From Watersipora subatra (taxonomy: Eukaryota > Bryozoa > Gymnolaemata > Cheilostomatida > Watersiporidae), in the NCBI RefSeq assembly GCF_963576615.1, contig NC_088710.1, forward strand, positions 4,258,001 through 4,322,000: DNA of 64,000 nucleotides. The letters are read 5' to 3'. The first letter of the stretch is position 1. Each line of letters opens with the position of its first letter. This document shows, piece by piece, positions 3,488 through 58,700 of this stretch. The notes below the pieces were generated by a model. That model worked only from the letters and a program-made list of their open reading frames with translations. It did not search any database and was not told where the DNA came from. The translations under genes were made by a program, and so were the position numbers.

Positions 3488-6400
3488 CTGTATCATAACA
3501 AATGAGGGTTTTATTTTTTAGTTTATGCTAACACAATACAAATAGAAAAATAAATCTAGATGTAGATTATATCTACATTCACAGTGTCATAAAATAAAGC
3601 AAATCAAAGGCAGATCATATAGACCTTAAAATCTGAAAATATATTTTCAAATATGGAAGGTTGTCTTCTCAATCAAAATAAATCTAACAACAGGAGTTAA
3701 TCACAGTTTTTAGTAAACATCTTATGAGTTCAAACGCCCCTATTTGTATTCTGATGGAGACATCGAGCTTCAATGCACAAACAATATAGGGGAATTCGTT
3801 TTACATAACATATATTAAAAAGTATTGCAGCGCTGGTTTTTCAAAGCAAAAATTTCAAAAGCTGTACTTGAAGCCTTGGTTAAGAGCAGACAACTCATTT
3901 GTTACACTAACCATAATTAAAGTTAGCACACATCTAATCATCAGCTTGCTGCATCATGTCTTTACTGTGATTATTGATCACTCAGAATTTGACTTAGTAC
4001 AACACTGGACAGCTATGAAGCACATTCTGCAATGTTCCAAAATGTACACTGTATAGCTACAGACCATACACACGCGTGCACGCACACACGCACACACAAG
4101 TTACAGTACATGCACTGTACAGCTGCAGAGCAAATGCTGTAATGTTACAGTACATACAATGTACAGCTACAGAACACACACTGTGGAGCTACAGAACACA
4201 CACACACCATGAAGCTACAGAACAGTCATGCCGTGCAGCTACAGCAAATACAGGAAGGCATCAATACAGTTACAACTAATGTTTTCTCTTGAAGGCCTAT
4301 TAACGGTTTCCACAATTAGTACTCTGCTTAACTTTGAAACACATACTCACACGATATTGTTCTGAGGAGGGTATTGGTTGACACCTGCAGGTGGATAGCT
4401 TTGTGGGTCAACAGGCGAATAGGCGGGTGGTGGAGCGCTAGCATGGTTTCCTACATACAAATTTGATAACTCATAGCCATGAAACTCTAGACTAATATAA
4501 GGATAATAAACTTCTGCATTTAAAAACCAATTTTGGTTGCAGTCTCATCACAGATCTACACATCTATATCAATAAACAACAGCAAAAGTTTTCAGAATGC
4601 TATCCATCAACTGGAACAGCAATGACAGGGAAGGAGTACAATCATACTTTGACTTACAAGCTTAATGCGTTCCAAGACTGAGCTTGTATGTCAACTTACT
4701 CGCATGTTGGTGCAATTTATTTATATATAAAACAATTAAATATATATTGATTGGTTTCCATACTCTAAAAAAATGCAAATAAAACACTCAAAACAAGATA
4801 TTGTAACAGAAAGAACATGTTGGTTATTGTCCTAACGTACCACATGCTTTCAAAAAGCAACAAATAAAAAGTAATGCAAGGAAATGTGATTAATTAAAAT
4901 GTAAAATTAAATACGTACAATAGCAGTTAACGCTAGCATTTGCCAAGAAGGGAGATATAAGTTATCCTTCATTACAACAGTTGACTTTGATTTTATCAAA
5001 GTGTTAAAAGACAAACTTAGAAGCAAACCTAAAAGCAAACTTTATTTTTAACTTAACGTAATTAAAATTTCTTCGGCGTTCATAGTTTGAAGTTTCTCGC
5101 TGGTTAGCTAATTTTTCCTCTGTTTCGCTTTCACAAATAGCCGACCGTTGTAAGATAAACCTATCTAAGGACGTTTACCTTTGTTGCCTTTTCAACATGT
5201 TGTGATTAGGACGAACACATGTGTCGTCACAAAGGGTTCATGCACGACCACTAGCCAACTTGTCCGAATGTCTATTTCATAGTTTTGATAGATAGCAACG
5301 GCCTTTTCACACAGCATTGTTTCAGTTGCGCTGTCACCAACCAATTGTTTATCCAATGCCATCAGCGGTCGTGCAGATCGCTGCACCGTTTAGAAACTAT
5401 GGTTAGTCCTTTTGCGAACTAAATGCCCTGAATATAATCCTTCTGTTTGATAATTGTGGATGTATTTCTGTCATATTGCTGAGCTAGCTCAATCACCATA
5501 CACATTTGGCATATTTTTTAATAATTTTCTGTTTAATATCAATTATTATCATTTGCTTTTTCTTTGTATTATCATTCATTTTACTAGCCAACTTTCGGTC
5601 TACGCACAGTACGTTTAATTCACATAATTCTGCTCTGAAAATCGCGCACAAAAGACACGGTAGAAAAGTATAACCTGAGCAGTTGAAAAATACAGAGTGA
5701 TGCTGTTCTCATAAAACACCTCTGGCATACTTGGCAACTGACTCAAGTGCTCGTATCTCAAACGTGGCTCGTATGTTAGTGCTAAAACTTGCTTGAAAGC
5801 TGGCTCGTATCTCAAGTTTCTCGTACGTTGGAGCACTCGTAAGTTGAAGTATTACTGTAGTGACTATCAACTAAAACAGCAATGAAAAGGAGGATGTACT
5901 GATCATCAAATAGAACAGCAATGACAAAGAGGGAGTACTGATTATTAACTGGAACAGCGATGACAGGGAGAAAGTACTGATCATCAAATGGAGCAGCGAT
6001 GACAGGTAGGAAGTACTGACCATCAAATGGAACAGCAGGATAAAGAGGAGGCTGAGCAGATGTCACAGGTGGACCCTGTATCCCTGGCTGACCAAATGTT
6101 GCTGGTGGCTGTGGCATTTGGGAAGGCTGGTTGCTTTGAGGATAACCAAATTGTGGCTGCGGAGGACCAGCTTGGTACGCGACTGTTGTCTGAACTCCTG
6201 GCCTTACTTCCGGAACATTCTGCATTAAAAGTTGAGAAACCGTAACAGCCGAAACCCATTTTAAAAGCTATGTTATTGTAAATTATAGTACCCTTTATAG
6301 ATAACTTGATATAGAATATAGTTGTATGATAAATAAATGCAATGATTTAAAAAAGTGCTCCAATAACACTTAATGTACTGTATCTTAAACGTTGACTTGC

Positions 6401-24759: not shown

Positions 24760-24763
24760 TTAA

Positions 24764-25484
24764 AGAAACCAGGTTAAACATTCCAAGCTTATTTATAATG
24801 CAAGTAATGATACTAAGAAAGGGGTTAAATACACAAATTCAATTTCAAATAAGTATCCTTAGAAACAGATGTGAAGGACCTATAAAAAATTTGAAATATA
24901 TTCAGAACTGGATTAAGACTAGACAAGACTCGACTAGATGCTGACATATATTTATAGAAACTCTCGTAACAACTCAGAAAAGACTTAGTTTTACTGTGTA
25001 TTCATACTATAGGTAGTTTCTTTCATGATGGTTTTGTATATATTTTACCAACTAAAAATGCATATGATGAAGAGGACAGCTTTCTTCTTAAGAGTTGTGT
25101 TGCCATGTTACATGAGCAAGCAAGTCCATTATTTTAATTAGAACATTCTAGTGATGTATGAATTGCATCTTATTCATTCTTGAAAATGTAAGTTGGTAAT
25201 CTGGACTCAAGGTAATAATATCAATTTGTATAATAGCTATCGAAAATATAAAGAATTTTATATAAAATAATTATATTATAAAAGATAAAGTTGATACAGT
25301 ATTCATAAAAACTCTGGAACCAATGTCGGGTATATAAACCACAATAGTGAAGATTTGGAAGACAACAGAAAATTGGTACTTAAAATGATTGTTGCTTGTA
25401 TGACGAATCGTTATGTTTGTTATAGTGGCAGTAGCAATACTTGTCAGCTATGGCAATTTGTTGATAATTGCAGTTGCCAACTTG
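24764..25484. other. 3' flank of gene B
   Basis: Homologous to 2685-3426; likely 3' UTR and spacer. No separate gene seen. Confidence 0.45.
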
Positions 25485-25545
25485 TCAGGCTAAAGGCGTC
25501 TTTGCATGCAACTCTTGATTTTGTGGAGCACCAGCTGGAGGGTAC
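25485..25545 (-). CDS. Gene B exon 10 (C-terminus and stop)
   Basis: 61 nt, acceptor tatgatacag. It encodes YPPAGAPQNQELHAKTPLA and a TGA stop in the same place as gene A. Confidence 0.7.
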
Positions 25546-28500
25546 CTGTATCATAAAAAATTGGAGTTGTATTTTTCAGTTTATGCTAACACAATACAAA
25601 TAGACAAATAAATCTAGGTGTAGATTATATCTACATTCACAGTGTCATAAAATAAAGCGAATCAAAGGCAGATCAAATAAACCCTAAAATCTTAAAACGT
25701 CTTATCAAATATAGAAGGTTGTATTTTCAACAAAAATAATTCTAACCCCAGGAGTTAATCATAGCTTTTAGTAAACATCTTACGAGTTCAAACGCCTCTA
25801 TTTGTATTCTGATGGTGACATCGAGCTTCAATACACAAACAATATAGGGTGAATATGTTTTACATAACATATATTAAAAAGTATTGCAGCGCTGGTTTCT
25901 CAAAGCAAAAATTTCAAAAGCTGTACTTGAAGCCTTGGTTAAGAGCAGACAACTCCTTTGTAACACTAATCATAATTAAAGTTAACACATATATCTAATC
26001 ATCAGCTTGCTGCATCATGTCTTTACTGTGATTAATGATCACTCAGAGTTTGACTTAGTACAAACACTGTACAGCTATGAAGCATATTCTGCAATGTTCT
26101 AAAGTGTGCACTGTACAGCTACAGACCATACACACGCGCGCGCATGCACGCTCGCACGCACACACAAGTTACAGTACATGCACTGTACAGCTGCAGAACA
26201 AATGCTGTAATGTTACAGAACATACAACGTACAGCTACAGAACACATGATGTACAGCTACAGAACATACACTGTGAAGCTACAGAACAGTCATGCCGTGC
26301 AGCTACAGCAAATACAGGAAGGCATCAATACAGTTACAACTGATGTTTTCTCTTGAAGGTCTGTTAACCGGTCTCCACAATTACTACTCTGCTTAACATC
26401 AAAATCTATACTCACACGATATTATTCTGAGGAGGGTATTGGTTGGCACCTGCAGGTGGATAGCTTTGTGGGTCAACAAGCGAATATGCGGGTGGTGGTG
26501 CGCTAGCATGGTTTCCTACATACAAATTTGATAATTCAGGTAAATCATAACCCTGCGACACTGCACTAAGATAAGGATAATAAACTTCTGCTTTTCAAAA
26601 CTTTCAAGCTTTCAAAAGTTTTCAATCTTGGTTGCAGTCTCATCACAGATCTACATACCTATATCAATAAACAACAGCAAAAGTTATTAGAAGTCTGACA
26701 TTCAACTGGAACAGCAATGACTGGGAGGGAGTACTGGCTATCAAATGGAACAGCAATGACGATTAGGAAGTACTGACCATAGAGTTATCTCCCCCTAGAG
26801 TGATAACTGTGCATTCAACAACACGAGCGTTTCCGGTGCCAACAAGGAGCGTTTAGGCCACGCCCCTTTTTTGTGCTAGTCAATCGTAGTGATCGACAGA
26901 ACAATAACGTCAGCCATGAGAATGATCATGAATTTCCAGTTAAGAGAGTAATTATTGCTCATATTAAAGAAATGATGATTATAGTTTATTACTCTAATAT
27001 ATGCTTATTATTTAAAGCAATTCAATACCTACATGCATTGAAAAGGCACTGAATAGATGGTGTTAAGTAAGTGAGTTAATGCAATCAGTTACTCCAATGA
27101 TATAAAGCCCCCAAACATGAGGGGCTGTATATCATTGGTTATTCATAGATAAGATAGATAGTCATACTGGGGTTGTATTACATTGGTGTGATGGGAAGCT
27201 AATCGACTGCCATCAACTGAAAGTATTGACATTGTATGGTGATAGAGTGATTCATTATCACCTCAGTTCACAAACAGCCCTTGGATGTAATCTTAGATTT
27301 CAATACATATCAATCAAATACACTATGTTTCCATGATGCGCAGTGCTTCGGAGTTGCGCTATCTCCGAATCATGGAAACGGCGTCTTCGCACTGAAATCA
27401 CTGCGCACTGATCAGTGCGAAGCCAGTGCAAATTCGAAGCAAAGAAACAGCGACTGCGCAGTGGCTGCGCATAGCTCTCATGCCGTGGATACAGATTCTT
27501 CGAAGGCCATAAACTAGTACAAAGGTTGTCCCGCTAATCTTGTTTTTTTTATTCTTCCGATCTTCTTTCACTTAAGTTTAATTATGGTCTGCATTCACGA
27601 GGATGATGAGGTGATTAGTTTCCTGGACTTTGTTATCGATGCCAACACATTTCGAAAAATAGGTGGCAAGTCCTAAATTAACGTATAAATAATATTACTT
27701 AAAAATACTTATTAAAAATATATTACTTTGTAAAAAGTGTGTTAAGGTTTGTAAAACCTTGTGAATGTGTATTGTAAATAAAAGTATAATGACGACAGAA
27801 TCATAAAAAGACCGTTTATGACGTTCGGTATCCGTGATCGATTCTATTTCTCCATCAGGCGATTCGATTTATACAATTTCTCTTCTCTGGCTAATTTGCT
27901 GAAATTCTGAAAACCACTGCGCAGCATAGAAACGTACAATCCCCTCGACTTCGGAGGGGGGCTGCTTCGCAGTACTGCGCACCATGGAAACATAGTGATA
28001 CATAGACTAGCTTGAAGCAAAGATGTCCACTAGTTAGTGGACATCTTTGCTTGATGTAAGCAAGCAAAAAGTTTGAAAGTTAGAGTGGCAAATGTTGTTA
28101 TATGTTAGATAAAAATAAATTATACTTAATTATACTAAATTATAATTATTTAAAAATAAAATAGACTTTTTATTACTTTATTTATTAAATAAAGTAATAA
28201 AAATTAGCTATGATTACAATAATTTTTTATTGTAATCATAGCTAAACAGATTATAATTAGCATTACTTGCTAATTATTTTACATTTAAACACATTTAGTT
28301 TTATTTTTTTTCCTAATTTATTTCAACAAAACACTTCTTTCATGATATGAAATTTAAAAGTTGTAGTTGTTTGAAAAAGCTTGCAAACCTTTAGAGTTGT
28401 TTTCTTTTTCCTCTTAATTCATTTAAATTGCTTAAAAATATTTTCTTATGATATGAAGTTTAAAAGTTAGAATAGTAAATGTTATATAAAATTAAATTTT

Positions 28501-31500
28501 CTGTCCAAATACTTTTTTATTACTCGGGCAACACCGGGTAGTACAGCTCATAGTTGATGGCAGTTGATTAGCTTCCCATCACACCAATGTAATACAACCC
28601 CAGTATGACTATGTATGTTATCTATGAGTAACTGCTTGCATTACCTTCACTTTCACTCACTATCTATTCAGTGCCTTGGCAAGTCATGCAGGTATCAGGG
28701 ATTATAATTCATTTCCATATTATTTCCATTTCCATTTCCATATTATTTCCATTTCCATAATTCATTTCCATATTAATTCCATTTCCATATTATTTCCATT
28801 TCCATATTATTTCCATTTCCATATTATTTCCATTTCCACAATTCATTTCCATATTAATTCCATTTCCATAATTCATTTCCATATTATTTCCATTTCCATA
28901 TTATTTCCATTTCCATAATTCATTTTCATATTAATTCCATTTCCCTACTTCATTTCCATAGTATTTCCATTTCCATATTATTTCCATTTCCATAATTCAT
29001 TTCCATATTAATTCCATTTCCCTACTTCATTTCCATAGTATTTCCATTTCCATATTATTTCCATTTCCATAATTCATTTCCATATTAATTCCATTTCCAT
29101 AATTCATTTCCATATTATTTCCATTTCCATAGCATTTCCATAATTCATTTCCATATTATTTCCATTTTCATACCATTTCCATACTTGTAAAATAAAATTT
29201 CCATATCCATTTCCCTAAAATTATGGAAATATTTATGTTTATGGAAATGAAAAAGTAAACATTTCCATAATATGTTTAACAATCTCTGGTAGGTATTGAA
29301 TTGCTTTAAATAATAAGCATATATTAGAGTAATAAACTATAATCATCATTTCTTTAATATGAGCATTAATTACTATCTCAAATGGAATTCATGATCCTTG
29401 TTTAACCCTTCTCATGGCTGATGTTATTGATCTAGTCAATCACTACGACTGACTAGCACAAAAAAGAGGCGTGGCCTAAACGCTCCTTGTTGGCACCGGA
29501 AACGCTCGTATAGTTATCACTCTAGGGGGAGATAACTCTATGGTACTGACCATCAACTGTAACAGCAATGACTGGGAGAGAGTAGTGACCAACAGCTAGA
29601 ACAGCAATGAGAGAGAGAGAGGAAGTACTGACCATCAACTGGAACAGCATTGACAGGGAGGGAGTACTGACCCTCAAATGGAACAGCAATGACAGAGAGG
29701 AAGTGCTGACCATCAAATAGAACAGCAGCGACAGGGAGGAAGTATGGTGAAGTTTATAAACAATCTATTCCAGCATAAATGACGCTTGGATCGCCCATTG
29801 TTAAAGATGTGGTTGCGTCAAGAAATTCGATTTAATGAAATTAAGACCCACAAAAGGCTAAAACATCAGCTCCAATTTGATGTCATTTTTGTCTTTGTAG
29901 ACCAACCCTGTCCAGAGATATATGCGTTTGAATGGAGCCCTCTTTTAAAAAGCTCACGTTCCAGCGGGTGCTTCTTTCGTGACGTCACAAGCAATACATC
30001 TGAAAAGAAACCACGAGCGATAAATATGAGGTCGCTTCCTTAGCCAATCATCAGCGCGAAATTTTTATATAGGCCGTAATAAATGTTATCACTCGTAAAA
30101 CGTGTTGTCTGTGATCTCAAATTTAGGGATTTTACTCTATTATTAAATCGCATGGACATCAATATTTACTAAATTAATTAACAACGTTACTTTAATGAAT
30201 TACTCGATCGACACGTTTTATTGGCGGACAACATAATTGTAAAAATTGCTGTAAAGTTACTGCGAAGGTGACTCCGAGTTTTCTTGGCATCAGGTAGTTA
30301 AAGTTCTACGGAAGAAGATCGGCGAATGGAGGTAAATTTATCTTTTACTTTGAGTCTCCTTTGGAGTTTCCTGTTGAGTTTACATTCAGATTATATTTCC
30401 CTGTTTGAGGCTAAAATGTAATTTCCTGTGCGTGCGAGATACATATGTACAGTGAGTTGTTGACGGCTTCTTTTTAATCTTTAGCATCTAGCAATACAAT
30501 GGCTTAGATTGATGAATATACTAAAGGTAATATTTTAGTACTCATTAATACATGTACTAATTAATAAAATTATAACTTTTTGCTATCACTAATCATCGTT
30601 TTATATTTTTTTATCGGTTCACCTAGCTACATTTGCTTCAAATTTTTTGTGGCAGTTTTTTCTAGTAAATTAGATTTATGATTTGACTTTAGATGTTCAC
30701 TTTTCACTTGTAGAAAGTGAAGAAAATCGATTGATCAATACAAATCTTTAACTTCCAGAACCAAAGCTTCGAATCATTGGCTTGGCGTATTGTGCCTTTG
30801 TTAAACATTTATTCGTTTTTAAAATTACACTCACATTCTATCTAAACCCCAATTTGAAAGCTTTCAGTAAGCTTTGAAAGCTTTTAGAATGACATATCTA
30901 TGAATGACATATATTTATTGCATTTGTTTTACTGATTTCAGGATGTTTATGTCGTCCCACCAGCCGAAGCAGCTTTGTCAGTGTAGAAACTGCCATAAAG
31001 GGGAAAGAGAGACTTGAATGTGTGCTGCATATACCATGATGTTTTGTTTGAGTTTGTTGCAGTAGATGAATTTGTCTTATTGTATCAGCTAAAACTACGT
31101 GAGCGACCACGACTTGATGAATATTTTCAATAAAAGCTTTATGCCGAGATGAAAATCTTTTTGCTTGTAAAAATTATATAATAAAATTATATTGTTGAAG
31201 ATAATGCAAAACATGATTTGCAGAATATTGTAGTAAATTGGATACGGTATATGGATGTCCGCAGAACTGGAGAATGTGAGTTCAAATCCAGTTTGCAGCA
31301 GACTTCTCATCCTTAAAACTCTATCCTTATGTATATTCTTTTCAAAGACGCAGCTTGCTTATTTTACTTACGGTAGTAAGAAACTAGTTTTCAGTGTGGG
31401 CAATGATATACAGCCCCGCCCCAAGGATAGGCGACGGACATGATGTGGGCGGGGCTTTTGGGAGGCTGTATATCGTTAGTGTGGGTAGCGGCGGAACTGT

Positions 31501-34500
31501 GCTGATACAAAGACCTTATTCTACATAGTTTGCTTGACAGAATTACCGTAGACCGGTAGAGTTGGTAGTCGGTACTCAAATGTTTACACAGCATTTGGAG
31601 AAAGTGACTAAGACAAATTTTCAATTTTCGTTATTTGAGGCCTTTGAAACATTCATAATAATAATGTATCTGTAGTGGGGTTTAAAATTTTATTCCAACC
31701 AACATTAGCAAATACAAAATAAAATATATGCCAATAGAGCCGCGTAGGACTAGACTTTTATCGCAAATAGCCGATGTGAATATGAGATATATTGACAGAT
31801 AAATCACGCGTGACATCATTTTGGGCAAGTCTGGGCATGGTTTTTTGGCCTGAGCGTTTTTACCGCGATCAGATCCTTTCGATTTTAATCTTCAAATATC
31901 TTGGCAATGAGATTGCCTAACACAACAAACAACATATCAATTGATAGAGAAAAAAATGCTTTCTTTTAAGATCAACTCAAATTTGACGCAACCACATCTT
32001 TAAACTGAAAACAGTTATGTTTTTAACTTATTACTGATGGGAAGGGGTCTCAATATGATTTTCTGATTTAATTACTTTTCATTCCTCGGGTGTTGTAAAA
32101 TAGAAAAGCGACAGAAAGGATAATACAATTGAAATAATGAAAAGCGGTGTTGATTTTTGTATCAAGTAAAACTAAAATGCAATATCATAAATTAAATGTT
32201 TGATCATGTTCACTGATTGATCCACATATTATTATCATATATTATGTTATATTATTATATTATTATATACATTATCCCACATACTATTATCATATATTAT
32301 GTTACCATATTATTGATTATCAGTTGTAACAGTGATGTCAGACTTTTGGCTCTACAGCCCATGGGATTGGGTCGTTTGTTGTTAAAGGATGACAAATGAC
32401 ATTGACTTGATTAAGCTGCGGTAATCTGAAATTGGCTGCGAAATTGACAACGCCCTGTGAATGGCTGCTGAAATAGATTGTTTATAAACTTCACCAGAAA
32501 GTACTGACCATCAAATGGAGCAGCAATGACAGGGAGGAAGTACTGACCATCAAATGGAACAGCAATGACAGGGAGGAAGTACTGACCATCAAATGGAACA
32601 GCAATGACAGGGAGGAAGTACTGACCATCAAATGGAACAGCAATGACAGGCAGGAAGTATTGACCATCAAATGGAACAGCAGGATAAAGAGAAGGTTGAG
32701 CAGATGTCACAGGTGGACCTTGTATCCCTGGCTGACCAAATCTTGCTGGTGGCTGTGGCATCTGGAAAGGCTGGTTGCTTTGAGGATAACCAAACTGTGG
32801 TTGTGGTGGACCGGCTTGATACGCAACTGTTGTCTGAACTCCTGGCCTTACTTCTGGAACATTCTGCATTAAAAGTTGAAAAACCGTAACAGCAAAAACC
32901 CATTTTTAAACGCTATGTTATTGCTAATGATAGCACCCTTTACGGATTACTTGAAATACGTAGAATAGTGTTGCATAATAAGTAAATGCAAGGATTCAAT
33001 AAAGTGCATCGATAACACCAAATGAACTTTATCTTAAGGTCTCTTTATTTTAAGATTTTAGATTTTTAACTTGATTAATAAATTTTACAAAAAATCTTTG
33101 AAATATCATTTTTTCCTAAAATATCCAATCTCAGCAAGTTCTCACCCTCACTCGATTTAAAAAGCAGTCATAAATAATGAAAAACATTGTATTCTATAAG
33201 AGAGGTTGTAAACATTGTGTGGTTGTGAATAGAGATCTGCCATAAGGAGTTACATTTCTAATAACTTCTGACAGAAAGAGATTTAATTGAACTATTATAA
33301 AGTATTATTATTCTAGCAGTAACGTTCGTTGTGAGAGATCATCATGCATACCATGCGCACAATTAATTTGTGTTGCAGCAAGATGGTCGATTAAGGCAGA
33401 TGGTAGCGTACTTGACTAGGAAGCTGAATATCCGGGTTTCGTTCCTGTGCAGGGGAATATTTTTTCCTGATGCTTTTAGTGTGGCTTCGGAGACTTAGAC
33501 GACACGGCTCTTATTATAGTAAATACTATAGCAACTAGTATGCTGGCAAGTTCGTATGCTGTGAGAGATCATCATGTGTAATAATTATGTGCACAATTAT
33601 TCTTTGATGCTACAAGATGGTTTAGTGGCGCAGTTGGTAGTGAGCCTAGCTGCAAAGCCAGACATCCGAGTTAAGTTCCTCTTTGCTTTGACCTTTTAGT
33701 TTTAACCTTTAACCTTTAATTCTTTTAACCTCTTAGGGTAGTTTCAGCGACGGACACCACTCTTATTATAGTCAAGATTAGGACATAATCCGTCTGCATT
33801 GCGGACAGTGTACATGTAGGTTAAATATAACCTACTTATAGTCGTTTTACTGTGACTATTATATTTGCTATTACAGGAGTCTACTAGTTCATCTTTTGCT
33901 TCACAAATACTGGTTTATAGCGATCACATTATAGATGTTCAATAGACAACTGGAACCACACAAAGCGATATACGTAAAAGGTTTATGCATAAAACCATCT
34001 TACTGCAGTAATTATGCCTCCAAATAGAGCTGTGCCAGCATTCTGGGCAACATATGAGATGGGATCCTGATGGTAGTGACTTCCTGCTGGGTGTGTGACC
34101 ATGACATTTGGCGTTACTACGGTGGCTCCAGGTCCCATAGCAGAAGTAATAGGAGGGGGCCCTTGGAATGGCCCCGCCTGAAAATGTAGATGACAACAAA
34201 CTTGTATATACTCATGCTGGGCATAATATTTTACAAAATGTGTACATAGGGTAACTACAAAGGTTATGTTAACGACGGCAGACCAAAAGTTTCACCATTT
34301 TATTGGTTGCTTTTCCGAGGCTAGCTGATTTGGGACCACAGGCTTCACCAATTACTAGTTCTGTATTTAGTTAAATGTATATGTACTTCTTTTACTGAAC
34401 AGGTGAAATTTGGTGTGTATTATACTTAACATGTTGCTGCACATGTATTTAAAAAATTAAGATTTTGTTTGGAGTTGTTTTTTCTCAACTAGATAAAACC

Positions 34501-37500
34501 AAACCAATAGATTGCAATTGAAATTGTGATTGTAAAGCGTGACCTCACTAGAGTGATTACAAAATGATAAAAGCATTAGGGTGATAATGACAGACCTATT
34601 GCAACAGCAAAACTGAAATACATGTACAATGATAAGAGAAGTTATCAGAGAGTGATTCATATGAATTAATGTCTAGTAGGAAGTTGCTAGCTAAAAGATG
34701 CCAACTAGTGAATTAGACAAAGGTCAGTATATATGGACAATATGGAATCACTCTCAAGCACCCTAACTTGTCTTAGCTTGTCATAAACAAATATGGCTAT
34801 GGTTGCTGGAGAAAATGCCTGTGGTGTTTTACCACAAATGAAAAGTCATACAGAATGCATAGGTATGATATCAAAGCAACTCATTAAACAATATGAATTT
34901 CTGGACTTCGGTTCTACAGACCATCCAAACTGTGGAACTAGATTTTAAGAGGGTTGTAATGATTCACCAGGTATTCATGATTAGACTCCATCGTAATGTT
35001 CTTAGAAAAGAATCAAAAGATTTCACAGTACAGATGAACATGCTCTCATAGAGGTATATTTCATAGCGGTACGAGTAGTACTGAATATAAATTAATCCGT
35101 TCCCATAATCTGAAAAACCTACCTAAATCAGGACACTACAATGGAAAATGAGCTTTTAATTGTTGTAATTGACTACCTACGCCAACTAAGTAATAAACAC
35201 CGTAAAACCTCTAATTGAACACCACCTTTATTTGAATGCCATCTCTATTTGGCCACCATTCTATGTAAAGGGTTGAAAAATAAAGCACCACCCTTTAATT
35301 GAACGCCACCTCCATTTGACCACCACTTTGACATTTTTTGGTCTTCACAAACCTATAATAATAAGTGATCAGTAGAAAAGTGTACAGAAAATCAGACTAA
35401 TGATGACTCGGTGGTATCAATAACAATTAATTGTTTCGTTGTTTCTGTTCGTATCGAAGTCTGCTTTCCACTCTAAAGGTTTTCGTTTTTTTGTTGTTAT
35501 AACTTTGAAAGCAACACCATAGAATTATTAATAACTGTATCAGGCTAATAGTAGTTCCTTGTTCCTTGTAGCCCTCCCACATAAATCACAGTGTGATTAG
35601 GCTAACGTTACTTCAATTTCAGGGCTAAAATTTGCAGTTTTCCAAAGCGTGGTCTTGGTATTGGTTTTGTTAAAATGTCAGCTAGCATTACTTCACTTGG
35701 ACAGTACTTTGTAGCAACACTGCCTGCCTCTATTGCCACACCGCTTCCTTTGTAGCCCCAAATAGAGCTATGTATTCCGATTCAGCAGTAGAGAGTGCAA
35801 TTGTACTCTGTCGTTTGCTGAACCAGGTGATAAGATTGCCTGCGTACAGAAAAGCAACTCCGGTAGTTGAATGTCGACCATTACAGTCATCAGCCCAACT
35901 AGCATATGAATATCCTACAAGGGTGTCATTGTTTTTACTGTAGTAAAGTCCATGATCAGAAGTTCCCTTTAGGTAGCGTAATACATGTTTCGCTGCAGTA
36001 AGATGAGTGACTGTAGGACATGAGTTGAATTTTGACAGAACTCCCGCTGAATATGTAATATCTGGGCGAGTAGCTACTGCTAGATATAAAAGGCTACCGA
36101 CTAGAGATTGATAGAGCTTTGAGTCCACTGATTTACTTCTATCTGACTTCACGAGTTTTACATCAGTAGCTGCTGGGGTAGACGCTAGGTTGCAGTTCTG
36201 CATGCCAAATCTGTGAAGGATCTGTTCTATGAATGCTGGTTGACTAACTTTCAAGCAATGGTTGTCTTTTTCCTGCTTCATAGACATGCCAAGAATAAAG
36301 TGCAGTTCACCCTGGTCTTTCATTTCAAACCTGTTGGCTAGTTTCTCTTTTGCCTTGTAGTACAGCAGATTCAGTGCTAGCCATTATGATCAGGTCATCG
36401 ACATACGTACACAGCAATGATTGTTTTGGTCTGATCACTGTTTTGTACATGTATGCACGGATCAGAGGTTGACTGCTTGAAACCTTGCAGTTTCAAGAAC
36501 TGATCAAGAACAGAGTTCCACCACCTAGGCACTTGCTTGAGACCATATATTGACTTTTTTAACGACACACCAGGTTTTCGGTTCCGGGTTTAGTAAAGTC
36601 TTCAGGCTACATCATATAAAGCTCTTCATTTATGTGACCATTGAGAAATGCAGTCACTACATCCATTTGATGCATATGCATATTGTTACTGACACCGTAA
36701 GCCAGCAAGGCTCTAAGGCAGAGGTCAGGAACCTTTTTGACTGAGAGAGCCAAAAAGCCACATATTTCAAAATTTAGTTCTAGGAGAGCCATATGTATAA
36801 TTTGAATCTCGAAAACATAATATGGAAAAAGAAGATCAACAAATTTAGTATGTTTGAGCAATTTTAGAGTATAAGAAAATTGGATTTATTTCGAACAACA
36901 ATGTTCACATAATCGATAAGTTCACATATCAAATTTTTTAGCCATCTTTTGATTTGAAGGGTTTACCTTGTGATCTAAAAGTGACTTGCGCGGTCTCTGT
37001 GCAGCCAGCGCAGAGCCGAGTAAAGAAAGCCCTAGAAACTCTTTGCTGCGTGGGCCCCATCAAAAAGTTGCAAATGAAAATATATTTCTATTAACTGGAT
37101 GATATTTTTTATTTTGGTTATTGTTACTGCAATTTCAGCGTTATTTGTATTATTATGATAATTAAATTAACAGCAAAATTATGGATTATTTTTTCTACTG
37201 GTTTGTCAAAGAGCCAGATGCAATCATTGAAAGAGCCACATATGGCTCGAGAGCCATAGGTACCCTACCCCTGCTCTAAGGGATGGGTACTTGATTACTG
37301 GAGCGTATGTTTCGTCATAGTCTATTCTAGCATGCTGTGAAAACCCTCGAGCTACATAAGGTCCTTTAAATCGATCTACATTTTCTTCATGGTCAAATTT
37401 CGCCTTGAATACCCACTTACAACCAATGGCACGACGCTTGGGAGGTAAACTGACAAGCTCTTAAGTATCATTTGCAACTAGAGACTGATACACTCTTTTA

Positions 37501-40500
37501 GCAGTAGCTAACCATTCTTTTGACTGCAGACTACTAGCGGCTTCAGACAACGTTTGTGGTTCAATAATGCTGTGAGCCATGCATGCTCTGTAGTTAGTTT
37601 CAATACTCGAGTTGCTGTACTCATCGATGCCAATTCTGACTGGCGGCTGATGTGAGCGGCTAGAGCGACAAAGCTCACCATTATCGTCGCTATTACAAAG
37701 ATCGAGTAAAGTTAGGTTGTCAGAGCCGATTGGCGTAGATACCTCTACAGATATTTTCGGAGTTGTCTTCTCAACTGAACCTGTTATTATTAAGCCTACT
37801 TTTGTTCCGTCAAAGACTTTTGTCTCATCTTGTCACGACATTGTGTGATTTTGAGTCATATAGCCTTTTGATCTAGATGAATAGCCAACAAAAACCATGT
37901 TTTCAGCTTTCACATCAAACTTCTGTCTAAGCTGATCTGGAATATGACTGTAAACTACGCACCCAAATACTCGCAGACGACAAATGTTTGGCTTTCGTCC
38001 AAACCAACATTCATGTGGAGTTATTGAAGTGGATTTGTTAGGTAAATGATTTCTAGTATATACAGGTGTAGCTACAGCTTCGGCCCAAAAAGACTTGGGC
38101 AGTTTTGACTGAAAAATTATAGCTCTAGCCGACTCGCATACAGTACGATTATATCGTTCAGCCACCCCGTTCTGCTCTGGCGAATATCTTACAGTAAGTT
38201 GATGATGTTTACCTTTTGACACTAAATATTGTTCAAATTCATTTGATGTGTACTCACCACCACGATCACTATGTAGTGTGAAAATTTTCAGCCCTGTTTG
38301 ATCTGTAACATACGCCTCAAACTCCCTAAACTTATCAAAAACTTCAGCCTTCTCTTTTATAAAATAGACAAAAGAGTATCTAGTCTAATCATCAATGAAC
38401 GAAACAAAATACACACTACCCGAAAATACACGACTTGATTTGCATAGGCCCACATACATCTGTATGCACTAACTCAAGAGGTTTAGTAGTTTTAACAGCA
38501 GTTTGACCATGAAATGGCTTTCTAGTCATTTTAATTTTCTTTTTAGTCATTAAAATATGCCTAAATTTAAATTTCCATGTAGTATAATTGTTTCCTGTCA
38601 GTTTGTCTAGCGATTGCTTTTCTTCAGATAACTCTGCCATTCTCAGTTTAAACGTATGTCAATCAGCCTGTAATGTCTGGGCCCATAACCTGTTAGGATT
38701 ATGGTGTTTAGAAATTATTGAATAGCACACTCAGAGAGTACACACTAGCTGTTTTAAAACAAGGATATATATAGGTCTAGACTAGACTATAACGAGTATA
38801 ACGTCATCCATAGATATGTAGAAAGAATGTTTATCATAACAAGGTGTCATCATAGAAACATTAGTGACTCAGTGAAATATAAACGACACGACTAGTACAT
38901 TGTATATGAACGACTAGTATATGAACGACTAGTATATGAACGACTAGCATATGAACGACTAGCATATGAACGACTAGCATATGAACGACTAGTATATGAA
39001 CGACTAGTATATGAACGACTAGCATATGAACGACTAGTATATGAACGACTAGCATATGAACGACTAGCATATAAACGACTAGCATATGAACGACTAGCAT
39101 ATGAACGACTAGCATATGAACGACTAGCATATGAACGACTAGCATATGAACGACTAGCATATGAACGACTAGCATATGAACGACTAGCATATGAACGACT
39201 AGCATATGAACGACTAGCATATGAACGACTAGCATATGAACGACTAGCATATGAACGACTAGCATATGAACGACTAGCATATGAACGACTAGCATATGAA
39301 CGACTAGCATATGAACGACTAGCATATGAACGACTAGCATATGAACGACTAGCATATGAACGACTAGCATATGAACGACTAGCATATGAACGACTAGCAT
39401 ATGAACGACTAGCATATGAACGACTAGCATATGAACGACTAGCATATGAACGACTAGCATATGAACGGCTAGCATATGAACGACTAGCATATGAACGACT
39501 AGCATATGAACGACTAGTTTTAGACTAAAAATTCCTCTTAGCGATGCAGCTAAAAACTTATCATTTGCACAAAATGCAATGCGTCAAGGTTTTCTTCTTC
39601 TGCTCAAAAAATTGTATGCAGGCTAATATCGACTAGTTCAACATTGCAGGAGAAGATTATTAGGTCAAAAAACGTTGTGGAAGTTATTAAACAGCCAAAA
39701 GATCAAAAACAACGATCAGAATGCGACTTTCTAAGCAAAATATACAAATATTTTTGTTTAAAAAATGTTTCAATTTTTCATGCTTAAGGATGCGGCTAAA
39801 AATTTATCATTTGTACGAATGATAAATTCTTAGCACGCTTGTTCTGATAGATTCTAATGAGCTTTATGAAAAATAAATTGCTAACCTCTATTTGAACGCC
39901 AACCCTATTTGACCGCCACTTTAGGGGCAGAGCAGAAAAATGGAGTGCCATGGGGTTCAAATAGAAGTTTTACGGTACTCATCTAATGGTTATGATCTAC
40001 AATAAAATTTAACATGAACTGTATAAAGTTCTTACCTTCAAGACAGTAGCTAGCGGCGGTGTGAGAAAGACTTGACAGCAACACGTTCGATACGCTAGAG
40101 TTTTGTGCTACATGACATAAACTTTACATTTAACCTAAAAACTTGACATACTATTAATAAAAGTGTGTACAATACGCAGACTTAAAAATAGGTTTTAATC
40201 TTACATTACAGTAAACTTAATTCCGATTTCAACTTTTTCCTTTTTCCTGCCGGGTTGGCTCTTTTTGCCTCGCCTTCACCTTAACTGTTAGCTAAGATTT
40301 TTAAAACCGTTTCAAACTACGAACTTTCAAACAAGAAAGACTGAGCGATACTGTTCTCGTAAGTTGTCTCTCGCACGGTCGGCCGCATCGAGAACTGTCT
40401 CGGCTCGTATCTAAAATTTGTTTTACATTTCCAAAAAACATTTGCTCAGAATTTTCCTTGTATCTCAAATTTCTCATATGTTGAGGTATGACTGTATTAT

Positions 40501-43500
40501 ACATGTATATAAAAGAGTAGAACTGTACCTGGTCTAGAATACCAAATACCCGAGTTTGGTCTGCTCTTCCGAATGATTTCACCAGCAGCTCTCGAGACTG
40601 AGGGTTTTGTCTATCGGCAATATGTCTGGATATAAAGATATACATGCATTTTTAACAGATCTGAAGCAAAACCTTTAAAGGTTGACTTGCAATAAAATTC
40701 ACATTACAGTTATTTGGTATCAAAAGATTCACCATGTCTTACTGTGTTGTAGGTGCCGAATATGTGAAAATTTGATTACAAGCTCAAAAACGAAAAGCCG
40801 CCGTAGATTGGAATCTCTTTATTTCGATGACGTCACCATGAAATTTGATTGTTGTCTTGTCACGTGATGTTCTCACGTGAATTGAAAGGCTAATAAAAAG
40901 CTCAATATAAAACTTATCGTAGCATTAGTTTATGACAAACACTTCGGGTTTTACCTAAGACCCCGTATCAAATATAGATGCTCGCTACTTTACAGTTTTG
41001 TTTCGGTTTGGTCTAATCGGCAAGTCGTAATCTGATCATGTGACCCAATACTTCGCAAATAATTTCTGCAGCACTTCTCGATTATCACAAGTGACCAACA
41101 GGCTCGTCATGATTATCAGACAATGATATGTACTTTTTCAAGCTAAGGCTAAAAAATTAAACAAATTTTTACGGTAAGTTATAGGATATCACTGCGAAAA
41201 GTGACAGCATTACGATGAGGATAAAACAGACGCGTAAGAAATAGACATGGTTTTATTGAATGCGTGAAATATATTTGTGAAAATATTTCGACGAATGAGG
41301 TTGCATGAAAGTGTAAACAGAAACCACCTCTCACAACTACATCACATTTGAGCCGTTTTGGAAAGAGAATCCACACAACGGCGGTCTCGTGTGGCTGCGA
41401 TTTTCTGTTCGTTTTTGAGCTTTTAAGAGCTTGTAATGACCTTTCCACATATTTTGCACCTACCACACAACAAAGTAAGACGTGGTGAATCTTTTCATAT
41501 CAAATAACTGTAATGTGAATTTTGTTGCAAGTCAACCTTTAATCTAAGCGAGATACAATGGTTCTTCACACTAACATGTCTTCAAAAATATCTTTGTTTA
41601 TGAAGTTGTCGTTATTGTATTAATATAACATTTATAAAACATATTTTATATTAGACAGAGTTTCTGGAATAAATCTGTTTTATGGGTTGAAGAGCTTGTA
41701 ACTCTCCTCCATGGTTACGTAATCAGAACACATTCCCTTTGCTGATTCAGAGAACTTTCTGGACACATTTGGCGTTGTTACTTCTTAAAACAGCAACCAC
41801 AACCAAGGCAAGGAGTGCTTAGGAAATGAAACAATGGTAGGCAAGCGCGCAAGAATTTGTGTCTTTATATTTTTCGTGTGCATGTTCAACATACATGTAC
41901 AGATTTACGGGTATCACCTCCTTAAAAAAGTTATGCACCGTTTTCGAATCGCAATAACTTGGAGTTGTCTACCCATTATTGTTTACAGTATTGAGTACTT
42001 TTGTATGGCACTTCCTTCAAGGCTGATTAGCAAACTGAAACTGGTTTAATCAATTGAAATCTTCATCTCAAGACATCGCATTACATGTGCAACACGTGAA
42101 AATATTTGTCAACGAGTTTTGTTCTAGATAATTCTTTCTTTTTGAGTGATTTTGTACTTAAAAGAAGCACTACTACTTACACAGCTAACAGTTTGACCAA
42201 GTCTCTCTTTTGTCCTGTGTAGATTCCCATTTTGATGATTGGTTCAGCATCTTTTGCTACCATAGGTAGAATTCTCTAGCAAAACAAATACACATGCACA
42301 ACACAGAATTACGAGGTCAGTGAGAGTATGAATTGGCTTACTCTGTATGACTATTACTAACGACAGCTGTTAATAACTGCAACCTAGTACTATAGCAACT
42401 ATCTGAGTTACAAGTTGCACGACTAAGTTCACTCGTACTTATACCTACATTCAGCAGGTTCAGAGTGTTACTCACTAAGCACCTAGTCATTACCACTGGA
42501 AGGTCAGTATTGTTTATATTATTATTTATGCTACGCCCTTATCATGGCCTCAGAGAGTAAAGACAATTTAGTCAGCAATCGCATTGAAGCAAAGAAATGC
42601 TGTCGCTAGAAACAAAGCCTAACATGATGAAACGTGTCTCGTCAGACCTATTGCTTGATCTTTTTTTATTTATACAAAAGAAGAAAGTGTAGGTTACGTG
42701 CAACCTAAAAGTGGATTTTAATTTTTTACACACATATTTTTTATTTTTAATATTCTGTACCTTTGTGGTAATTTTTATTTTCGGGTTTAATAAGAATCCT
42801 GTGTAATATATCTTCTTTTTTTCTTCTACACCATTAAGTTATTATTATTAATTTATTATTCAGTAAAACAATCAAAGAATAGCATTTGGATGTTTTTTCT
42901 ATACTGAGAACATTTTACGATGAGGTCACAAATGAAACATTTGAATTGGATTTCCTCTTTGCATCGTATGTCCTTATTATACACCTCAAACAGGTATGGT
43001 CTGAGCTACGACTATGTTGACCTCCGGTTGGTCAGAACCAATCTAGGTCATAACTTGGATAGCGAGCGCAGTTGTTAGTTTCTAGCAACTGGTACTATTA
43101 TTAGCCAGAAGGTGGTAAAGCTAGTAGTAGTTATTAGTAGCATTAGTCAAAAGGTGATAGTGGTTATTGCTTCCAAGTTTTACTGGGGTGTCTGGTTACT
43201 CAAGAGAACTGAAGTATAGTGGAATCTCGGTTCTCGAATGCTTCAGTTCTCGACCAATTCAGTTTTCAACCAAAAAATTGAGAATTGTTCGTCTCAAATC
43301 TGAAACATAAATTCGGTTCTTGACCAAACCGGAGCATGCGCATTAGAAGTCAACGTTCGGAACAGCTCCGGAAACAGCATGGGAACATTTGTTGTCAAAG
43401 GGAGAAGCAAGTTACGTTTCATAAATCCTTTACAAAAAAATGGAACCATCTGGGACGACATCCTTCTACCAAAGAAATTTGCTAGGGAGACAACTCCTCC

Positions 43501-46500: not shown

Positions 46501-49500
46501 AACAAACAGCAATAATGAAAGGAAAAGATTATATGTTTATATCTCTCCCCCAGCAATAAGAGAAATGCAATATTGGCCAATATTAGAAGTAAAATGCACT
46601 GATATTATTAGAATAACCAATATTATTAGTATAGTAATTAGAGATGCCCCGATTCTAACTTCACCAGCCGATTCAGATACCGATCCGATATACCGATTCT
46701 TATTGAAAAATAATCCGATTCAGATACCGATTCAGATCTTTTGTGTTGCATAGATAATTTTTAATTTTATTACACAAATATAATGCAAAGAAAATATAAA
46801 TATTGATGCATTTATTTGTTTGTATTTATGGAAAAAGATATACATGTATATTAAATTCACATACTGACATACCGTGCATCTAGTAACAAAACAGTCCATG
46901 TTTCTTGTAATCTGCTATTAATAATGGTAGTTACTGTTAGTGGTACATCTTTCTCTGTGATAATGAAGTCTGTCTTCTACTGCTGAACGAACTGATGCAC
47001 CGGTACAAGTTTAGAGCAAATAAACGTTTATCTAAATTACCGTTAGTGGTTCAATTATCTCAGTGTGACGTCCTTATCTTCCATCACTAGCGATGTAGCC
47101 AGTCGTACTGAAGAAGGATTCACTTGCAACAGATGGTGGAGGACAGGCTAAATACCGATAAGCCACTCAGGTTATTTTATGCGATGCAAACGATACATCA
47201 TATCATCAGGATCAAGAGAGATACGTAAATAACTTTATGCATGGACTGCTCAAATTACTTTCGTAATGCTAGTACATAGAAATGTTACACCGCAAGCACG
47301 CATTCTTGTTTCCATCATTGGTCTCTTGTTCGTGATTGGCTGCAATAAATCATATCGCTGTAATTGGGAAATACCGCACTTGTTGATTACGTCCTGTCTA
47401 AAGCCAAAAGATTCCTCAGCTGTGTTGACGTTTATCAGGCTATAGACATGAAATAGATTGTGTGACAGGCTTGGAATTCATTAGGTGAAAGTAAGGAACT
47501 TGCAGCTGATGATTTTTGATTAGTGCAGCAGGCTAAAATACGGTTTTCTGCTAAATAGTTGAACTGCAAAAAGTATCTGAAGTTTCCGATTTTTTAAGAA
47601 AAGATCGGCTGATACCGATTCAGATACTTAACACCCATATCGGCACCGATACCGATTCCGATATTGAAATCGGGGCAACTCTAATAGTAATAGTATAAAA
47701 CCAATGCACAATTTTGTTTACATTTCAAAACGTCATTATATAAACGTCTGTATATCATTGGAATACCAAAGTACTCGATTGTTTCTAAAAAGTCAGATAC
47801 TTTGAAATCGGCAAAGATGAAACGATTTCAGTACTCCTACGTTAGTGACAGAAACCGTCGACAATGCCATAGACTGGTGAAATGTGCACGTTATTTTTTC
47901 GCGAAATGCGCACGACTTAATGGTTCTATTCTCTGTCGCCCGCCGTTTCAATTTCCGGTCTTAACTTTTATTAAACCAAGCTTTTCAAGTGTTTTGTGAC
48001 GCTTTTCATCCTAATAAATCTGTCTATTTGTGTATAATCCGATCAGATGGGTAAGTTTTTAGAGAATTTTGATAATTTACAAAAACTTGGTAGCATATTT
48101 AAATAGGCCTAAATGTACTTTGTATCGTTATTATACTTTAACTAATCTACAAAACGATGGTTAAATTTGTTGATGAAATTTTAATACAAGGGTTCGTCTC
48201 ATTGTTGATGAATAATTTTCGTAAGTTGTGTGCACACGCATTTATTATAAAAACTCCCAAACTTCGCATCCGCTCATTTGGTTGTGGGATTATTTTTACA
48301 CCATATGTAACTTATTTAAGTGTTTATTATAGTTTTTAGACTCTGGAACAAATGAAACAAAAGAAAATATACGTTTATAAGAATATTTACTCCAACATGC
48401 AAACATTTCGATATAGGAAGCAAACACCGGAATGGAGTAACTTCAAACGTCGAGGTTTGACTATAACGAGACTGATGTACCTCGGTATGATGATTTGCTA
48501 GTTTCCAGCAAACTTCAACTTACGAGAAATCATGACAAAGTTTTTAGTTTATTCTCTAGGCCAGCAAAGTTAGAAGGACTAATACATTAACTCTGTAGCT
48601 CCTCGTAATCTCACATCTAATGCTGTCTATTATTCAAAGGATGACCTTGACACAAGATTTTAAAGCTTCGCATGCATCTTTAATTACAGCAGCAAAAAGT
48701 TGAGGCATTTTATTTAGTTGTTTTGCAAAAAAAGTAGGTCAAACAAATTTTTAACAAAGCCGGTAGTTGATGACCTAACATGGAACAGTTGGCAGTTATC
48801 AGTTAACCTGACTTATGATATTCCATAGAACATGCTCACCCTGGCAGCGCTCAAGTCAGAGATGACTTTCACCCTATCACTTCCTCCTGTGAACTGCCCT
48901 TGTAGTCTATAGAGCTGTAAATATACACATATCCTCATCTACACGTACTTATCCTTAGCTACATGTGTATTGATTACTATTTCTTTGATTATAAGAAACA
49001 TGGCCAGCTAACAAAATGCTTGGTCACATGCCCCACAAACTCATTCAGTTGTCTAGCTAATATCTGATGAGGAAATTCTGGCACAGAACAATATTTTGGT
49101 TTGTTTGGCAAACATGTTTCTAGATATGTATGCTTTAATTCCATTTCTTTAGGCGCTACTTTAGTCCCTGCAACGCCTATGCCATGTTTATGTTAGGCGT
49201 ATGCTTATGCTCTGCTTATGCCATGTTTATGTTAGGCGTATGCTATGCTTTTGCCGCGCTTATTACGCTTATGCCATGCTTCAGTAATGTTTATGCAAAC
49301 CTTATGCTGAGCTAATATGACACTAGTCACAGACACTTCGGTCTATTATCTTCTCAATGATATGATATCATCAAAATAAACACACATCACAAGTGTACTC
49401 GTCAGCCGCGCCAAGTTCCATGGCCTAAAAGTTTAAAACAGTCATTTTTAACCTCATGGCAGGTAGTGAGCCCTGTGCGAGTCATATGTACACGGATCGA

Positions 49501-55712: not shown

Positions 55713-58700
55713 CTGTATCATAACAAATGAGGGTTTTATTTTTTAGTTTATGCTAACACAATACAAATAGAAAAATAAATCTAGATGTAGATTATATCTA
55801 CATTCACAGTGTCATAAAATAAAGCAAATCAAAGGCAGATCATATAGACCTTAAAATCTGAAAATATATTTTCAAATATGGAAGGTTGTCTTCTCAATCA
55901 AAATAAATCTAACAACAGGAGTTAATCACAGTTTTTAGTAAACATCTTATGAGTTCAAACGCCCCTATTTGTATTCTGATGGAGACATCGAGCTTCAATG
56001 CACAAACAATATAGGGGAATTCGTTTTACATAACATATATTAAAAAGTATTGCAGCGCTGGTTTTTCAAAGCAAAAATTTCAAAAGCTGTACTTGAAGCC
56101 TTGGTTAAGAGCAGACAACTCATTTGTTACACTAACCATAATTAAAGTTAGCACACATCTAATCATCAGCTTGCTGCATCATGTCTTTACTGTGATTATT
56201 GATCACTCAGAATTTGACTTAGTACAACACTGGACAGCTATGAAGCACATTCTGCAATGTTCCAAAATGTACACTGTATAGCTACAGACCATACACACGC
56301 GTGCACGCACACACGCACACACAAGTTACAGTACATGCACTGTACAGCTGCAGAGCAAATGCTGTAATGTTACAGTACATACAATGTACAGCTACAGAAC
56401 ACACACTGTGGAGCTACAGAACACACACACACCATGAAGCTACAGAACAGTCATGCCGTGCAGCTACAGCAAATACAGGAAGGCATCAATACAGTTACAA
56501 CTAATGTTTTCTCTTGAAGGCCTATTAACGGTTTCCACAATTAGTACTCTGCTTAACTTTGAAACACATACTCACACGATATTGTTCTGAGGAGGGTATT
56601 GGTTGACACCTGCAGGTGGATAGCTTTGTGGGTCAACAGGCGAATAGGCGGGTGGTGGAGCGCTAGCATGGTTTCCTACATACAAATTTGATAACTCATA
56701 GCCATGAAACTCTAGACTAATATAAGGATAATAAACTTCTGCTTTTAAAAACCAATTTTGGTTGCAGTCTCATCACAGATCTACACATCTATATCAATAA
56801 ACAACAGCAAAAGTTTTCAGAATGCTATCCATCAACTGGAACAGCAATGACAGGGAAGGAGTACAATCATACTTTGACTTACAAGCTTAATGCGTTCCAA
56901 GACTGAGCTTGTATGTCAACTTACTCGCATGTTGGTGCAATTTATTTATATATAAAACAATTAAATATATATTGATTGGTTTCCATACTCTAAAAAAATG
57001 CAAATAAAACACTCAAAACAAGATATTGTAACAGAAAGAACATGTTGGTTATTGTCCTAACGTACCACATGCTTTCAAAAAGCAACAAATAAAAAGTAAT
57101 GCAAGGAAATGTGATTAATTAAAATGTAAAATTAAATACGTACAATAGCAGTTAACGCTAGCATTTGCCAAGAAGGGAGATATAAGTTATCCTTCATTAC
57201 AACAGTTGACTTTGATTTTATCAAAGTGTTAAAAGACAAACTTAGAAGCAAACCTAAAAGCAAACTTTCATTTTTAACTTAACGTAATTAAAATTTCTTC
57301 GGCGTTCATAGTTTGAAGTTTCTCGCTGGTTAGCTAATTTTTCCTCTGTTTCGCTTTCACAAATAGCCGACCGTTGTAAGATAAACCTATCTAAGGACGT
57401 TTGCCTTTGTTGCCTTTTCAACATGTTGTGATTAGGACGAACACATGTGTCGTCACAAAGGGTTCATGCACGACCACTAGCCAACTTGTCCGAATGTCTA
57501 TTTCATAGTTTTGATAGATAGCAACGGCCTTTTCACACAGCATTGTTTCAGTTGCGCTGTCACCAACCAATTGTTTATCCAATGCCATCAGCGGTCGTGC
57601 AGATCGCTGCACCGTTTAGAAACTATGGTTAGACCTTTTGCGAACTAAATGCCCTGAATATAATCCTTCTGTTTGATAATTGTGGATGTATTTCTGTCAT
57701 ATTGCTGAGCTAGCTCAATCACCATACACATTTGGCATATTTTTTAATAATTTTCTGTTTAATATCAATTATTATCATTTGCTTTTTCTTTGTATTATCA
57801 TTCATTTTACTAGCCAACTTTCGGTCTACGCACAGTACGTTTAATTCACATAATTCTGCTCTGAAAATCGCGCACAAAAGACACGGTAGAAAAGTATAAC
57901 CTGAGCAGTTGAAAAATACAGAGTGATGCTGTTCTCATAAAACACCTCTGGCATACTTGGCAACTGACTCAAGTGCTCGTATCTCAAACGTGGCTCGTAT
58001 GTTAGTGCTAAAACTTGCTTGAAAGCTGGCTCGTATCTCAAGTTTCTCGTACGTTGGAGCACTCGTAAGTTGAAGTATTACTGTAGTGACTATCAACTAA
58101 AACAGCAATGAAAAGGAGGAAGTACTGATCATCAAATAGAACAGCATTGACAAAGAGGGAGTACTGATTATTAACTGGAACAGCGATGACAGGGAGAAAG
58201 TACTGATCATCAAATGGAGCAGCGATGACAGGTAGGAAGTACTGACCATCAAATGGAACAGCAGGATAAAGAGGAGGCTGAGCAGATGTCACAGGTGGAC
58301 CCTGTATCCCTGGCTGACCAAATGTTGCTGGTGGCTGTGGCATTTGGGAAGGCTGGTTGCTTTGAGGATAACCAAATTGTGGCTGCGGAGGACCAGCTTG
58401 GTACGCGACTGTTGTCTGAACTCCTGGCCTTACTTCCGGAACATTCTGCATTAAAAGTTGAGAAACCGTAACAGCCGAAACCCATTTTAAAAGCTATGTT
58501 ATTGTAAATTATAGTACCCTTTATAGATAACTTGATATAGAATATAGTTGTATGATAAATAAATGCAATGATTTAAAAAAGTGCTCCAATAACACTTAAT
58601 GTACTGTATCTTAAACGTTGACTTGCAACAAAATTCACATTACTGTTATTTAGTATCAAAAGATTCCCCATGTCTTACTCTGTTGTGTTGTAGGTGCCAA

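Follow-up and report, generated by a model that had tools for sequence, protein, structure and literature searches.

In gene B of Watersipora subatra, the 5' splice site that ends exon 8 lies within a 39-bp tandem repeat and recurs in the same phase in five successive units. The five GATG/GT donors (the slash marks the exon end) that had been predicted from the letters were located on the minus strand exactly to the base, with exon ends at 32665, 32626, 32587, 32548 and 32509, and GATGGT was found exactly five times in the minus strand from 32863 to 32496. Coordinates are those of the window, the 64,000-nucleotide stretch analysed (4258001-4322000 within a 784-Mb assembly), unless marked as genome coordinates. 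The donor letters were also as predicted, being GTCAAT at 32665 and GTCAGT at 32626, 32587, 32548 and 32509. All five exon ends were in phase 1, lying 199, 238, 277, 316 and 355 nt from the start of exon 8 at 32863, as is automatic for a 39-bp unit since 39 is divisible by 3. The frame into exon 9 (26515-26412) was intact for each of the five donor choices, with an identical C-terminus every time; the two leading bases of exon 9 complete the phase-1 codon, and the protein ends in NHASAPPPAYSLVDPQSYPPAGANQYPPQNNIV followed by the stop. A repeat unit acting as a micro-exon, through the AG inside GTCAGT, was rejected by inspection, as the 33-nt piece contains an in-frame TGA. The features of this region are as follows.

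32665..32863, minus strand: exon 8 as far as the unit 1 donor, preceded at 32863 by the acceptor TTTTAATGCAG; all five copies have AG/GT and an open frame
32659..32665, minus strand: donor 1, ATG/GTCAAT, exon end 32665, weak (-2.6 kcal/mol)
32620..32626, minus strand: donor 2, ATG/GTCAGT, exon end 32626 (-6.4 kcal/mol)
32581..32587, minus strand: donor 3, ATG/GTCAGT, exon end 32587 (-6.4 kcal/mol)
32542..32548, minus strand: donor 4, ATG/GTCAGT, exon end 32548 (-6.4 kcal/mol)
32503..32509, minus strand: donor 5, ATG/GTCAGT, exon end 32509, the final donor ahead of the first insertion (-6.4 kcal/mol)
26412..26515, minus strand: exon 9 with the stop and a PPPAY-containing C-terminus; acceptor TTTGTATGTAG; in all five copies

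Structure and identity of the gene

The exon called exon 8 in the original prediction was itself upheld, but the exon count behind that number was not, as six exons were supported, three of them upstream of the exon at 34177-34004. The four exons that precede exon 8 are listed below.

34004..34177, minus strand: preceding exon, phase 0-0, open in all five copies
40529..40625, minus strand: upstream exon, DUF4476-like region
42181..42275, minus strand: upstream exon, DUF4476-like region, phase fitting its neighbours
48840..48914, minus strand: upstream exon, DUF4476-like region

Exons upstream of 48914 were sought without any convincing candidate, and the most 5' exons were not found. The six exons (744 nt with the stop) are open in all five copies of the gene, where every one of the six acceptors has AG and every one of the five donors has GT; dN/dS over the 10 copy pairs ranged from 0.05 to 0.46 (0.05 for the E/B pair). 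The five copies therefore look functional.

The gene region can be called only DUF4476-like, at a sub-threshold level. Concatenations of 83-89 aa matched DUF4476 (PF14771) at 14.6 and 14.7 bits (E 0.041 and 0.038), below the curated cut-off of 22.5 bits, and the 247-aa concatenation gave no DUF4476 match. A search of the genome for the family, in six frames and exon by exon, gave none at E <= 0.1 among the 2 candidates scored, the control being positive in 2 of 14 genomes. A DUF4476-like region with a different C-terminus after it is also the arrangement in Lophotrochin, a spiralian DUF4476 protein (PMC7441323). Pfam matches of single open reading frames to DUF6453 (E 0.094) and DUF4024 (E 0.066) were both non-significant and were rejected. 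No family was found by Pfam in the read-through frames of both flanks or by the NCBIfam search, the PDB sequence search returned only two matches (E 0.54 and 0.62), and the window gave no Rfam or ARAGORN match.

Several other features were observed in and around the gene. Copia-like retroelement ORF pieces, named by inspection, lie at 35730-38660 on the minus strand, in the gene B intron between the 40529 and 34177 exons; judged from exon spacing, the element is probably common to E, and the gene A intron is about 3.7 kb shorter. A 15-bp array at 38904-39517 (ATATGAACGACTAGC; 40.9 copies, 98% match, 41.9 copies in the E block) is open in three listed frames, and a 38-bp array of 83.6 copies occupies 20155-23335, between genes A and B. 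The stretch 43297-43512 is open on both strands, and its part 43297-43437 showed a third-position excess on the minus strand when compared with gene A (5, 2 and 9 differences by codon position); it is possibly an exon or an old gene fragment.

Five tandem copies with unequal numbers of donors

A protein search of the genome gave ten matches at E <= 1, which were exons 8 and 9, five of each, in one cluster. The cluster is made up of five tandem copies in the order D, E, A, B and C, three of which fall within the window.

Exon 8 at 4213966 (genome), outside the window: copy D
Exon 8 at 4237270 (genome), outside the window: copy E
Exon 8 at 4264219 (genome), within the window: copy A
Exon 8 at 4290863 (genome), within the window: copy B
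Exon 8 at 4316445 (genome), within the window: copy C
5880..6035, minus strand: gene A, four degenerate units; GT only in unit 1 (exon end 6021), +1 G lost in units 2-4
58106..58261, minus strand: gene C, four units as in gene A; exon end 58247, +1 G lost in units 2-4

When the array alone was searched against the 784-Mb genome, at least 18 matches were found (9 candidates scored), all of them in this intron of the five genes. As the array occurs in this intron of all copies and nowhere else among those matches, it most likely predates their divergence and belongs to intron 8. Intron 8 of copy D is 984 bp long and holds an uninterrupted array of about 22 units (TRF 21.7 copies; 4212937-4213784, genome), which covers 831 of the 984 bases and stops 153 bp short of exon 9. 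The array is split by insertions in copies B and E, and copy A has array units at both ends of intron 8 with other sequence between them.

In-frame donors ahead of the read-through stop were counted as GTs starting ATGGTCA or with a duplex energy of -6.0 or below. By this count A and C have one each, D has three plus one variant (three GATG/GTCAGT and a GTG/GTCAGT in unit 5, four in total), E has four and B has five. Since the unit 1 donor alone is common to all five copies, the form without extra units is probably ancestral, and it would suffice in A and C.

The 5' half of D with E and A, and the 5' half of A with B and C, resemble two versions of a duplicated block of 51-54 kb (about 4214167-4318988, genome). 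Alignments gave 98.2% over 14.4 kb (the upstream part of copy D against that of copy A), 99.3% over 25.9 kb and 98.6% over 6.2 kb, with a further 95.8% over 5.5 kb that is mostly tandem repeat and flank; in the self-comparison of the window, the longer A/C piece aligned at 96.3%. The block could be a real duplication or two haplotypes assembled in tandem; on the latter reading, E and B would be two alleles one unit apart.

The array continues past two insertions

TRF reported the array at 32499-32681 with a period of 39, 4.7 copies and a 97% match. A 33-mer search allowing up to 3 mismatches found 9 matches in the window, against 0.00 expected from 100 shuffles, and the tandem array is not a chance occurrence. 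The array does not end at 32499, as its units resume at 29744-29543 and again at 26777-26690, beyond two insertions.

32499..32681, minus strand: proximal array, units 1-5, the first bases being the end of exon 8 (TRF, units read)
29745..32496, no strand assigned: first insertion, dividing the array; terminal inverted repeats of 31 bp TGGTGAAGTTTATAAACAATC; flanks TACTTTC/TACTTCC, a near-duplicate (6 of 7)
29543..29744, minus strand: middle array, units 6-10, one unit with a 4-bp insertion and unit 10 interrupted (TRF, units read)
26778..29542, no strand assigned: second insertion, a transposon; terminal inverted repeats of about 256 bp CATAGAGTTATCTCCC, 86.6%; exact 8-bp target duplication GTCAGTAC
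26690..26777, minus strand: distal array, the remainder of unit 10, unit 11 and a partial unit 12 (units read)

With both insertions removed, intron 8 of gene B consists of an 11.7-copy array at 39 bp and a tail of about 175 bp; units 2-4 of the array are identical. The first insertion contains a dispersed repeat from about 29800 inwards, with at least 38 matches elsewhere in the genome (40 scored of 2587 candidates), most of which begin about 50 bases in. Because the dispersed part excludes roughly the outer 50 bases, the insertion may consist of one element nested within another. An 8-bp target duplication together with terminal inverted repeats is the rule for hAT-like DNA transposons, and both were found in the second insertion, where GTCAGTAC is exact and the inverted repeats run to about 256 bp; the duplication indicates that this insertion landed inside a donor motif. 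In a Pfam scan of 24600-34601 that covered the three minus-strand frames and read through stops, no family was listed, hAT transposases included. One end of the second insertion had at least 38 matches elsewhere in the genome (40 scored of 1476 candidates), and for both insertions 2 of the 40 scored genome matches lie in copies E and B. For the second insertion (26778-29542), five matches to one repeat, on other contigs, scored the same as the query, suggesting that this high-copy transposon may have been active recently.

The first donor of genes B and E is weak

The later four donors had been predicted to be stronger than the first, and the energies of the duplex with the 5' end of U1 agreed, being -6.4 kcal/mol for GTCAGT and -2.6 kcal/mol for GTCAAT; strength here is that of the 11-nt duplex only, with the U1 letters and human-type weights taken as background. 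The value of -6.4 also applies to the other array donors and to the first donors of A and C. Four other donors of the gene gave -9.0, -7.0, -8.3 and -4.5 kcal/mol (for the 40529 exon, the letters of its identical copy at 63727 were used), so that donor 1 was the weakest tested in the gene; E has the same letters. Among the 314 minus-strand GTs in 26530-32900, 5.4% were as strong as donors 2-5 and 34% as strong as donor 1. The array donors carry C at +3 and T at -2, and even GTCAGT is mediocre. As the first donor is GTCAGT in A, C and D and lacks the +5 G in B and E, the weak GTCAAT was probably derived in the B/E lineage, where it favours the donors downstream.

Unit number changes, and most units evolve as intron

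Two alignments of copies E and B, of 21.6 kb and 4.3 kb, showed 99.3% identity. Around exon 8 the two copies differed at 6 of 847 aligned bases, and the alignment had 147 gap columns, comprising one 39-bp gap in the array, one 54-bp AT-rich gap and 54 columns at the end of the excised stretch. Two of the TRF arrays in the E and B blocks had changed length, the 39-bp array (3.7 copies in E, 4.7 in B) and the 15-bp array (41.9 and 40.9). Unit number has thus changed by exactly one, at least once, between E and B. The 39-bp tandem unit falls within the minisatellite class of about 10-100 bp, and its copy number differs between E and B as paralogues or possibly as tandem-assembled alleles.

Beyond the first units, changes were compared with the repeat consensus. 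The synonymous share of all possible unit changes is 24% (28 of 117). Units 2-4 of A showed 2 synonymous and 14 non-synonymous changes, those of C likewise 2 and 14 (not independent of A), units 6, 7 and 9 of B 2 and 12, and unit 11 of B 2 and 2. As most changes in the units after unit 1 of A and C, and in those of distal B, are non-synonymous, most of the array looks to evolve as intron, with the extra donors tolerated rather than selected. In copy D, 15 of 22 units retain the +1 G of the donor, the second lowest figure among the 39 positions when a weak partial repeat ahead of unit 1 is left uncounted, suggesting that distal donors are not maintained; units 2-3 of D, which would be exonic if used, differ by amino-acid changes. 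Neither the unit-change counts in A, B and C nor position conservation in D gave any sign of selection on extra donors or extra peptide units. Too few changes to weigh were seen in units 1-5 of B (3 synonymous, 1 non-synonymous) and in the first unit of either A or C (2 and 0 in both). The pattern in B units 1-5 was rejected as coding evidence, as it consists of four changes only, recent homogenisation explains it, and unit 1 overlaps exon 8.

Probable origin and use of the repeated donors

The account that we consider probable is that the array was amplified in the ancestor of the cluster and then decayed copy by copy, with B and E now splicing mainly at units 2-5 and 2-4, respectively, to give largely neutral isoforms. 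In the ancestor of the five genes, a segment made up of 15 bases from the end of exon 8 and 24 from the start of intron 8 would have been tandemly amplified, and the ancestral array would have stretched from the donor almost to exon 9, stopping about 150-175 bp short of it, as is seen in D and in B without its insertions. Each unit that kept its GT would bring a complete 5' splice site, and its use would be frame-neutral (39 = 13 codons) where no indel intervenes. Unequal decay would then have left one usable donor in A and in C, three or four in D, four in E and five in B, and the identical units 2-4 of B look as they would after homogenisation, which was presumably recent. The main pairing partners of U1 snRNP would most likely be one or more of units 2-5 in B and one or more of units 2-4 in E, and the predicted isoforms would have one to four additional units of 13 residues (GQYFLPVIAVPFD) immediately ahead of the PPxY tail (PPPAY). 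These would probably be tolerated as largely neutral splicing variation. The choice among equal tandem donors tends to depend on their position and on the balance of SR proteins and hnRNP A1, so a mixture rather than a single product would be expected.

A competing and less probable account is that the unit 1 donor alone is used in all copies, the rest of the array being inert intron and the ladder a by-product of the 39-bp unit. The unit 1 donor is the sole donor present in all five copies, the array decays in an intron-like manner in A, C, D and distal B, and exon 8 is open and 93-100% identical up to 32665. This account, however, requires B and E to rely on the weakest donor tested in B (-2.6 against -4.5 to -9.0 kcal/mol; same letters in E), with better, identical motifs within 160 bp of it (four in B, three in E), and the dN/dS of the E/B pair is 0.05. 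Use of a donor upstream of the array within exon 8, which would leave the array wholly intronic, appears improbable. The examples at 32719 (AAG/GTCCAC) and 32737 (TTG/GTCAGC) are in phase 1, and with energies of -4.1 and -3.9 they outscore donor 1 of B, but both are weaker than the -6.4 of the later donors, and the frame stays open to 32665 in all five copies, although a stretch of 18 codons is too short to be tested for selection. Least probable is adaptive regulation of both the number of units and the choice of donor, forming a length-tunable C-terminal spacer before the PPxY tail, as frame neutrality, the identical units 2-4 of B and the differing unit number of E and B would allow, for the decayed units keep neither donors nor peptide, A and C do without them, and the homogeneity is equally explained by recent unequal exchange.

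Beyond the favoured account of amplification and unequal decay, a broader proposal is put forward tentatively, namely that intron 8 acts as a mutable donor counter. Unit number and the unit bearing the best donor would set the count of 13-residue spacers before the PPxY tail, repeat turnover would rewrite the isoforms that neighbouring genes make, and in B and E, where donor 1 has become weaker, this loss of strength might already have shifted splicing into the repeat.

Relation to known systems and significance

In human IFI6 (6-16, G1P3), an array of 26 units of 12 nt starts near the end of exon 2, and arrays of the IFI6 type start at an exon end with the donor within the first unit. The repeat-unit donors of IFI6 were reportedly described by Turri, Cuin and Porter in 1995 (NAR 23:1854). 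Downstream units of this minisatellite are used as donors, giving three mRNA species (PMC4526556). The array described here likewise starts at the exon end with a donor in its first unit, as read from genome sequence alone. Several units with a donor-like GT in one phase, as in the IFI6 type, were found in B, E and D, and A and C have one each. Unlike in IFI6, the unit is 39 bp rather than 12, the gene is a different one, and it belongs to a tandem family with one to five usable donors per copy; the array also fills most of the intron and has been hit by insertions. The arrangement looks to join a known kind for which human IFI6 is the direct precedent, with the use of extra donors here being putative. 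A literature search of limited scope found no other cases of a minisatellite multiplying splice donors.

Three other systems show partial likenesses. Tandem alternative 5' splice sites (PMC2423196) share the closely spaced competing donors, which in the known system give highly similar isoforms, but the spacing here is set by a 39-bp repeat, up to five sites are present, and their number can be altered by unit gain or loss. In intron gain by tandem genomic duplication (PMC4974935), tandem duplication similarly underlies a change in gene structure, whereas here an existing intron was filled and no new intron was seen. TERT VNTR6-1 (PMC11830802) is likewise a minisatellite within an intron, its 38-bp unit is of much the same length, and it has been linked to splicing; the present array, unlike it, includes the exon boundary itself.

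The cluster thus presents, apparently independently of the human case, a minisatellite that multiplies an exon boundary and whose unit number has changed between near-identical copies. It offers a natural dose series within one genome, with 1, 1, 3-4, 4 and 5 competing, near-identical donors in otherwise similar genes, which makes the choice of the spliceosome among equal tandem 5' splice sites directly testable.
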